From an uncultured Pseudomonadota bacterium (GTDB lineage Bacteria; Pseudomonadota; Gammaproteobacteria; Burkholderiales; Methylophilaceae), in contig CAIRBH010000048.1 in NCBI GenBank assembly GCA_903876765.1, positions 1-64,000 of the forward strand: 64,000 nt of DNA, in the 5' to 3' direction. A program made the position numbers and the translations under genes. The notes under the pieces are model-generated. The model saw only the letters and a list, made by a program, of their open reading frames with translations. It searched no databases and was not told the origin of the DNA. This document shows, piece after piece, positions 16,601 through 19,487 of this stretch; position 1 is the first letter of the stretch; every line of letters begins with the position of its first letter.

Positions 16601-18799
16601 CTAAATAGCCGTTAGTTTAGCGAATTCCATTGCCAACCATTTTAAGCCTTCACGACCAAAATTCACTTGCACGCGCATATCGCTGGCGTTGCCTTCGTAA
16701 CTCACGACCACACCATTACCAAATTTAGTGTGCGCTACTTGCTGGCCTATCTTCCAAGGCATGACATTTTTTTGGCTGTGACTTTGTTGTGCGCTCATCA
16801 TCGCAGGCAGTTCGCTGTAGTCACGCGTACTGCCTGATCTAGCAACAGGCTTGCTGTTGATACGCTTGAGTAGCTGCTCTGGAATTTCGTCTAAAAAGCG
16901 CGAGGGGATGCCATAACGCACCTTGCCGTGTAACATGCGGCTTTGGGCGTGGCTTAAATAAAGGCGCTGACGAGCACGGGTCACGGCCACATACATTAAG
17001 CGCCGCTCTTCTTCTAGGCTTTGATTTTCGTACAAACTTTGCTCATGCGGGCATAGGCCTTCTTCTAAACCGCTAATAAATACTACTTTAAATTCCAAGC
17101 CTTTAGAGGCGTGCACAGTCATCAGTTGCAGGGCTTCTTTGCCAACATCCGCTTGATGTTCGCCTGCCTCTAGGCTGGCATGGCTTAAAAATTGAGTGAG
17201 TAAATCTTGTTCAGTTTCACCGTCCACATTATTGTGATTACCAAAATCTTGATTAGTAAATGACACCGCTGCCGTCACCAATTCTTTTAAGTTTTCTAAG
17301 CGGTCTTCGCCTTCTTTATCTTGTTGATAATGCGCGGTTAAGCCAGACATCGTGGTGGCTAATTCCGTCAGCTCAGCCAAGCTAATGCCATAAGCGCTAT
17401 CGACCATGTGTCTAATCAGCGCCACAAAGCCTTCTATGCCTTTGCCACCTAATTTACCATCGCCCACTTTATTAATCGCAGCTTGCCAAATGCTACAGTT
17501 TTCTGCGCGTGCCAGCTCTTGTAATTGCTCTAAACTGCGCGCGCCTATGCCGCGTGCCGGAAAGTTAATCACCCGCAGTAGCGCAGTATCGTCATTAGCG
17601 TTAGCAATTAAACGCATATAGGCCAAGGCATGCTTAATTTCGGCACGTTCAAAAAAGCGCAAGCCACCATAAACGCGATACGGTAAATTGGCCGAAAACA
17701 GCGCGTGCTCTAAGATGCGCGACTGCGCATTAGAACGATACAACAGCGCAATCTCGCCCAGAGAACTGCCTTCACAATGCAACATTTTAATTTCATCAAC
17801 AATGAATTGCGCTTCGTCGGTATCGTTATAAGCATCATAGACCCGCACAGGTTCGCCAGCGCCAGCCGATGTCCACAGATTTTTACCCAAACGATTAGTA
17901 TTGTGCGAAATAATGGCATTGGCGGCATCCAGTATATTGCTATGTGAGCGGTAATTCTCTTCTAGCTTAACAATATGCTGAATATTGAAGTCTTTTTCGA
18001 AATCTCGCATATTGCCTACCCGCGCACCTCGAAAACCATAGATAGATTGATCATCATCACCCACGGCAAACATGCAATTACCTTGCCCTGCCAGCAATTT
18101 AAGCCATAAGTATTGCAGACGATTTGTATCTTGAAACTCATCTACCAAGATGTATTTAAAGCGGCTTTGATAATGTTGCCGTATATTCGCATCGCGTTCT
18201 AAAAGCTCGTAACAGCGCAACAACAACTCGGCAAAATCGGCCACCCCATCACGCTGACATTGTTTGTCATACTCCTCAAAAATATCACGCATTTTTTGCG
18301 AATGAGCATCGTAGGCTTCTACCGCATGGGCACGTAAACCTTCATCCTTACAGCCATTAATAAAGTTTTGTACTTGTTTAGGCGGATATTTCTCGTCATC
18401 CACATTCATCAGCTTCATCAAACGCTTAATCACAGATAGCTGATCGGCAATGTCTAAAATTTGAAAACTTGCAGGCAAACCAGCTTCTCGATGGTGAGCG
18501 CGTAGTAGCCGATTGCATAGCCCATGAAAAGTCCCAACCCACATACCACGCGTATTGATGGGCAATGAAGCGGTGATACGAGTGAGCATTTCTTTTGCGG
18601 CTTTATTGGTAAAAGTCACCGCTAACAAACCAGTGGGCGAGACTTGCCCCGTTTGAATCAGCCAAGCAATGCGTGCAGTCAGTACGCGGGTTTTACCACT
18701 ACCCGCCCCTGCTAAAATCAGCGCAGACTGGTGTGGTAGGGTTACTGCCTCTAGCTGTTTATTGTTAAGATCGACGAGTAATGTAGATTGATTTTCCAT
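16601..18799 (-). CDS. uvrD: UvrD/Rep-family DNA helicase II
   Basis: LNNKQLEAVTLPHQSALILAGAGSGKTRVLTARIAWL; VGDDDQSIYGFRGA; LMTVHASKGLEFKVVF. Confidence 0.95.
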   Translation of the reverse strand: MENQSTLLVDLNNKQLEAVTLPHQSALILAGAGSGKTRVLTARIAWLIQTGQVSPTGLLAVTFTNKAAKEMLTRITASLPINTRGMWVGTFHGLCNRLLRAHHREAGLPASFQILDIADQLSVIKRLMKLMNVDDEKYPPKQVQNFINGCKDEGLRAHAVEAYDAHSQKMRDIFEEYDKQCQRDGVADFAELLLRCYELLERDANIRQHYQSRFKYILVDEFQDTNRLQYLWLKLLAGQGNCMFAVGDDDQSIYGFRGARVGNMRDFEKDFNIQHIVKLEENYRSHSNILDAANAIISHNTNRLGKNLWTSAGAGEPVRVYDAYNDTDEAQFIVDEIKMLHCEGSSLGEIALLYRSNAQSRILEHALFSANLPYRVYGGLRFFERAEIKHALAYMRLIANANDDTALLRVINFPARGIGARSLEQLQELARAENCSIWQAAINKVGDGKLGGKGIEGFVALIRHMVDSAYGISLAELTELATTMSGLTAHYQQDKEGEDRLENLKELVTAAVSFTNQDFGNHNNVDGETEQDLLTQFLSHASLEAGEHQADVGKEALQLMTVHASKGLEFKVVFISGLEEGLCPHEQSLYENQSLEEERRLMYVAVTRARQRLYLSHAQSRMLHGKVRYGIPSRFLDEIPEQLLKRINSKPVARSGSTRDYSELPAMMSAQQSHSQKNVMPWKIGQQVAHTKFGNGVVVSYEGNASDMRVQVNFGREGLKWLAMEFAKLTAI

Positions 18800-18915
18800 T
18801 CCCTTATTATCGCATGGGATTTAACTAAAATTTGGATATTGCACTGACACAAAGTGTTACAAATGAATCTGAACCAAACTAAATAGCCTTTAGTCTGAGT
18901 AGGTATGATAGCTAA

Positions 18916-19020
18916 ATTTCAATTTGGCTAGCGTTCCGCTCCAATTCCTCCCTGAGCGGAGGCCTTAGAAGATAAGGCATTTAGCCCCGGCTCTCATCCC
19001 CTTGAGTCGGGGTTTTTTTT
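18916..19020 (+). ncRNA. Candidate three-hairpin sRNA with a CCUCCC loop and an intrinsic terminator
   Basis: CCGCTC-caattcctccct-GAGCGG (18936-18959), GCCTTA-GAAGA-TAAGGC (18962-18978), CCCCGGCTC-tcatcccctt-GAGTCGGGG (18985-19012), T8 at 19013-19020; -10-like TATGAT at 18904-18909; starts 3' of the divergent uvrD start so it is not uvrD's own terminator. Confidence 0.65.
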
Positions 19021-19190
19021 GACCTGATAGCCCGCTAAAAACTGTACTAATAAGCATAGCGCGCAGCAGCTTGTTAAGCTCATAAAGTCACGGCTAATGG
19101 GTCATTGTCACAAATGTGTCACCCAACACAGTGCCAAAAAAAGCTAAACTCTAGCATCTTCAATTTATCACTTTAATTATGGGAGTAGTC

Positions 19191-19487
19191 ATGAAAATTA
19201 AACCAGCATCAGAAGCGTATTTAGAGAAAGCAAAAATGCTGAGTGAAGAAGAATCTGAAAGATTATTAAGCAGAATGCGCGGCAAGCCAGCGCGCCGGCT
19301 AGAAGACAACAAACTGACTACGCTTGAAGCCGTGGCCATACAGCTTGAACTTGATGATGAGCTGTTATCAGAGTGGCGTAAAAATATGTACGCTATAAGA
19401 GAAAAAGACGCGAAAAAGGCAAAAGAAAAAGAAGAAAAAGCAAAGGGAAAAGAAGCTAAGGCGAAGGAAAAACCTGCTAAAGAGTAA
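19191..19487 (+). CDS. Hypothetical protein with highly charged Lys/Glu/Ala C-terminal tail
   Basis: SD GGGAGT before ATG at 19191 (MKIKPASEAYLEKAKMLSEEESERLLSRMRGKPARRLEDNKLTTLEAVAIQLELDDELLSEWRKNMYAIREK...). Confidence 0.75.
   Translation: MKIKPASEAYLEKAKMLSEEESERLLSRMRGKPARRLEDNKLTTLEAVAIQLELDDELLSEWRKNMYAIREKDAKKAKEKEEKAKGKEAKAKEKPAKE

Follow-up and report, generated by a model that had tools for sequence, protein, structure and literature searches.

The intergenic region between uvrD and the next open reading frame (ORF) of the window (the whole stretch of 64,000 nucleotides analyzed here) carries, on the + strand, a small RNA (sRNA) gene that is, with near certainty, real and a member of an already known Rfam family, RF02837 (anti-hemB). 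We read it, with a probability of about 0.6, as an ancient, self-contained RpoE-controlled sRNA unit of the Burkholderiales, consisting of a promoter and four hairpins, retained through a change of neighbors, and acting as a translational repressor in the envelope-stress response, of a kind known from enterobacteria, with the copies of Burkholderia, in which the family got its name and the promoter box has decayed, being atypical.

An anti-hemB family sRNA gene divergent from uvrD

The sequence at 18904–19020 agrees with its preliminary description, which had proposed that an sRNA gene with exposed C-rich loops and a dedicated terminator lies here, a proposal borne out by both the predicted fold and the Rfam match. 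The Rfam/cmsearch comparison recommended there placed 18934–19020 (+) above the gathering score of RF02837 (52.2 bits versus 49.5; E = 2.7e-9; model positions 1–81 of 81), and the three hairpins, CCUCCCU loop, and intrinsic terminator of the family are all present. The gene thus founds no new class and does not belong to either of the 2 C-rich-loop classes that had been named as candidates, and the earlier reading, although right about the sRNA gene itself, missed its sigma-E-type box and order-wide distribution. The model of the Burkholderia “double-hairpin” or toxic small RNA (RF02278) gave no match at its gathering score or at E ≤ 1. The alphaproteobacterial classes were compared through the suhB/mmgR model (RF00519), which reached 16.5 bits against a cut-off of 41, and, for the CCUCCUCCC-loop family, by bacterial class, copy arrangement, and sequence. 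The window copy lies beside uvrD and not at the hemB location; membership stands nevertheless, because that location gave the family its name but plays no part in the Rfam model. The Rfam search found the sRNA in one copy in this genome; 4 weaker matches (14–26 bits) are mostly ordinary terminators and not convincing as second copies.

The full sRNA is predicted to span 18905–19020 (+; ~116 nt), with the 5′ end placed from the position of the putative −10 element and the 3′ end from the U run. As had been described, it is divergent from uvrD (DNA helicase II; 16601–18799, − strand) and separated by about 160–170 nt from the next + strand ORF, so that the transcript would end before the ORF at a terminator of its own, while uvrD is transcribed away from it. 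The uvrD assignment rests on TIGR01075 (E = 5.5e-299; 993.5 bits, under the model cut-off of 1144) and on Pfam UvrD domains over their cut-off. The next ORF (19179–19487, +; start at 19179 or at the ATG at 19191) encodes 102 lysine-rich residues with no Pfam or NCBIfam match, falls outside the sRNA unit, and has no counterpart next to the sRNA in any of the 30 other Methylophilaceae loci examined.

Four hairpins with covarying stems and conserved loops

None of 200 dinucleotide shuffles was as stable as the region 18904–19020, the folding energy of which is −47.0 kcal/mol (z = −5.28); 18934–19020 folded alone gives z = −4.89. The preliminary description counted 3 hairpins, whereas the predicted fold has 4. 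The 5′ hairpin H1 (18905–18934), which the Rfam model does not cover, is followed by H2 (18935–18960), whose loop, CAAUUCCUCCCU, displays CCUCCCU at 18947–18953, presumably the seed that would bind Shine–Dalgarno sequences. This C-rich loop is exposed, as had been stated, but in the second hairpin and not in the first. Downstream lie H3 (18962–18978; GCCUUA...UAAGGC) and the terminator hairpin H4 (18983–19014), with 11 pairs and, as described, an exposed C-rich loop, UCAUCCCCUU; the U8 run at 19013–19020, the first 2 bases of which fall within the predicted H4 stem, completes an intrinsic terminator ending at 19020.

Conservation and covariation, the other check that had been proposed, support the structure: the stems covary and the loops are kept in relatives. 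RNAalifold recovered 12 pairs from the full Methylophilaceae alignment, a result of the varying length of H1, and pairs were therefore counted on an order-wide alignment of 58 sequences. Across H2, H3, and H4, 94.0% of the cells are standard pairs and 15 of 21 pairs show double-sided changes, and none of 500 shuffles reached any of the 5 measures. The core pairs of H2 are formed in 100% of cells, those of H3 in 90.2% (double changes in 7/8 pairs), and those of H4 in 93.9% (6/8 pairs). The sequence of H1 varies by clade but its pairing is kept (GAAGGC/GCCUUC, AGGUGCG/CGCACCU, and AGACGA/UCGUCU at the equivalent place); H1 arms from the same sequence had a mean pairing score of 15.55, compared with 10.08 for arms swapped between sequences (standard deviation of the swapped mean, 0.25), in a test that ignores the relatedness of the sequences. 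The CCUCCCU loop is nearly fixed, being present in 85/87 Methylophilaceae loci and 69/70 others, counts for which the motif itself was partly used to locate the loci. A CCCCUU-type terminator loop occurs in 82/87 Methylophilaceae loci and 50/70 others and is missing from Burkholderia-like copies.

Distribution and change of genomic neighbors

Of 187 Methylophilaceae genomes, 111 gave a match over the RF02837 cut-off, as did 245 of 399 genomes sampled from the order Burkholderiales. Two genera with genomes of ~1.3 Mb (g2 and g16; for example, G001, G003, G083, and G095) have no match over the cut-off; most of their members keep rpoE, and the sRNA may have been lost or have strongly diverged with genome reduction. 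Co-occurrence of the sRNA with rpoE was considered as evidence and set aside as uninformative, given that rpoE is present in nearly all Methylophilaceae.

In all 85 Methylophilaceae loci with enough flanking sequence, the sRNA lies divergent beside uvrD, and neither hemB nor ysxC was matched at any of them. Among the loci of other Burkholderiales, hemB or ysxC is found beside the sRNA in 66/70 (divergent upstream hemB in 55/70) and uvrD in 0/70. The sRNA gene has thus swapped neighbors at least once, and the name “anti-hemB” therefore reflects position only. This split between uvrD and hemB/ysxC locations is absent from the Rfam model and from the searchable papers.

A conserved sigma-E-type box upstream of the sRNA

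Almost every copy of the sRNA is preceded by a common box, GGAACTT (or GGAACTA), N15–18, TCTNA, which resembles the RpoE (sigma-E) consensus of E. coli. In the window, the predicted sigma-E promoter spans 18870–18898 (+) and comprises a −35 element TGAACCA (18870–18876), a 17-nt spacer, and a −10 element TCTGA (18894–18898). Scored as matches to GGAACTT/TCTNA over 11 positions, the box has at least 8 matches in all 85 Methylophilaceae loci and in 62 of the 70 loci from elsewhere in the order, and at least 9 matches in 82% of the 85 and 83% of the 70, as against ~5% of dinucleotide shuffles and 0–1% of stretches located 200–285 nt from the loop. Among the analyzable loci of 100 further ones, fetched after the box idea had been noted, at least 8/11 was reached in 54/54 Methylophilaceae and 32/39 others; because these are relatives of the first loci, they only partly cure the problem of a motif seen before it was tested. 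The box belongs to the sRNA, because it accompanies the sRNA at both the uvrD and the hemB/ysxC locations. When named genomes were scanned for the box together with H2, the matches listed included Thiobacillus, Methylovorus mays, Hydrogenophilus, Candidatus Nitrotoga, and Thiomonas.

This genome, in which both rpoE and hfq are present, has boxes similar to that of the sRNA ahead of rpoE, rpoH, and ppiD, which makes the sRNA box a probable sigma-E promoter. Both rpoH and rpoE are classic members of the sigma-E regulon in E. coli. Here, GGAACTAATGAGAGTGTATCGCTGTCTTG lies ~280 nt upstream of rpoE (G000:C38:23931–23959; L201:1432), and similar boxes were found upstream of rpoE in 2 of the 3 genus relatives examined (L206:801 and L207:1056, reverse complement) as well as in roughly 9 of 20 further Methylophilaceae loci. 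A box in this place is consistent with autoregulation of rpoE. The pattern GAACYW-N15–17-TCTNA occurs at just 17 sites in the 1.91-Mb genome, and the sRNA, rpoH, and ppiD have one each; over the whole genome the pattern is not enriched (17 sites versus 51 for the backwards control). The rpoH and ppiD calls were made with NCBIfam on the first 150 residues, rpoH passing its subfamily model and ppiD remaining under the full-length cut-off. Together with an ORF at L216, whose small secreted product matches no Pfam family, the ORFs behind these boxes (ppiD at L212 and rpoH at L215) form a candidate RpoE regulon.

Sigma-E control of the sRNA is thus likely, judging from sequence. A different promoter for the same anti-hemB sRNA is conceivable but unlikely: in this genus it would be transcribed from a housekeeping sigma-70 promoter, with GAAC/TCTGA as a dead remnant. 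The box of the window scores 8/11 and has one of the weakest −35 elements across the loci compared, and the sequence TATGAT occurs at about 18903; moreover, Burkholderia-like genomes (L036, L037, and L063) combine a degenerate box with TATGAT/TATCAT-type sequence, and the level of ncS04, the homologue in B. cenocepacia J2315, was unchanged under the stresses tested (Table 2, PMC5688073). However, a generic sigma-70 scan found no promoter and no good sigma-70 hexamer pair is present, ATGAT falls within an arm of H1, and GAAC is kept in 84–85 and TC in ~80 of the 85 Methylophilaceae loci, with the right spacing.

The literature searched, which left most subscription journals outside, held no report of a sigma-E link for the anti-hemB family, and although the family has an Rfam entry, no function or regulator of it was found in searchable papers. 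The shared box and the boxes of the partner genes are likewise absent from the Rfam model and those papers and constitute an unreported regulatory link. If the conserved sigma-E promoter is true, it would place the family in the envelope-stress response of most Burkholderiales, make its role directly testable in cultured methylotrophs (for example, Methylovorus), and show that the name “anti-hemB” marks a location only.

Proposed mode of action

We consider it quite probable that this anti-hemB sRNA is trans-acting, driven by RpoE, probably Hfq-dependent, and masks Shine–Dalgarno sequences with its C-rich loops. During envelope stress, RpoE would start a transcript of ~116 nt just downstream of 18898, which would end at the intrinsic terminator at 19020. 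With the probable assistance of Hfq, the H2 loop would pair with G-rich Shine–Dalgarno regions and block translation, and the CCCCUU-containing terminator loop may do likewise in many species. The sRNA would therefore act in the manner of MicA and RybB, the sigma-E-dependent repressors of enterobacteria, without being kin to them. Pairing with Shine–Dalgarno regions is suggested by the loop sequence and by related CU-rich sRNAs.

Searches for targets yielded no convincing candidate. No conserved gene carried the 9-mer complement before its ATG across 52 genomes of the genus, and 4 of the 15 exact 9-mer sites lie on the complementary strand of the sRNA gene. The start regions of porins and OmpA-family proteins paired no better than background, and GGGAGGA-N-ATG occurs at 4 sites in the sRNA's own genome, compared with 3 for the backwards control. 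The best loop-complementary site found at a real gene start in this genome is one of these 4, a GGGAGGA preceding the start of a FixQ/CcoQ-like gene (cbb3 oxidase; L205, G000:C45:12862), which is only a lead.

The lack of convincing targets, and a loop sequence nearly fixed order-wide, as one would expect with one conserved ligand, would suit C-rich loops that bind a protein or another RNA, as a sponge or anti-Shine–Dalgarno decoy, and not mRNA start sites. We regard this as improbable, given that Hfq binding has been reported for ncS04, with evidence cited in PMC5688073, and that pairing with ribosome-binding sites has been proposed for other CU-rich Burkholderia sRNAs (PMC5688073). There is very little chance that the hairpins are a leader or terminator of the 102-aa ORF, which does follow on the same strand ~160 nt downstream, or a bidirectional terminator near uvrD: the RNA is conserved and the ORF is not, the predicted transcript stops short of the ORF at a terminator of its own, transcription of uvrD runs in the opposite direction, away from the hairpins, transcripts of the Rfam family have been detected experimentally elsewhere, and the RNA is kept at 2 unrelated genomic locations, the change of neighbors and the unconserved ORF together arguing against any such role.

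Relation to known sRNAs

Alphaproteobacterial CCUCCUCCC-loop sRNAs, of the CcsR type, occur in several tandem copies under stress-sigma control. They resemble the anti-hemB sRNA in their C-rich hairpin loops and their stress-sigma control and differ in bacterial class, tandem arrangement, and sequence. Among enterobacterial sRNAs, MicA and RybB repress the mRNAs of outer-membrane proteins. MicA, RybB, and MicL are all short, with an intrinsic terminator, and share with the window sRNA the proposed control by RpoE and the proposed repression of translation; the seed here, by contrast, is a hairpin loop, and we claim no kinship in sequence or structure. The Salmonella case of sigma-E sRNAs and outer-membrane proteins is described in PMC1804206.

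The closest counterpart is ncS04 (RF02837; Burkholderia RNA 7), the one family member known to be expressed as a discrete small RNA: dRNA-seq mapped it as a 105-nt transcript, which a Northern blot also showed (PMC5688073). The 2 RNAs share H2, H3, the terminator, the CCUCCCUGAGCGG motif, and length, and both are intergenic and divergent to the upstream neighbor. The window copy, however, lies beside uvrD and not hemB, has a longer H1 outside the Rfam model, and carries a C-rich terminator loop, which is missing from Burkholderia-like copies, and a sigma-E-type box. The sRNAs of RF02278 (ncS27, ncS03, ncS05, and ncS62) have 2 hairpins and occur in 3 to 5 copies per Burkholderia genome (PMC5688073); the likeness lies in CU-rich loops complementary to ribosome-binding sites, in Betaproteobacteria.

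As an incidental observation in the same genome, the first 700 bases of another contig (L218; G000:C22) consist of regular repeats translating as SKPRSRRLT, probably a CRISPR array at the contig end.
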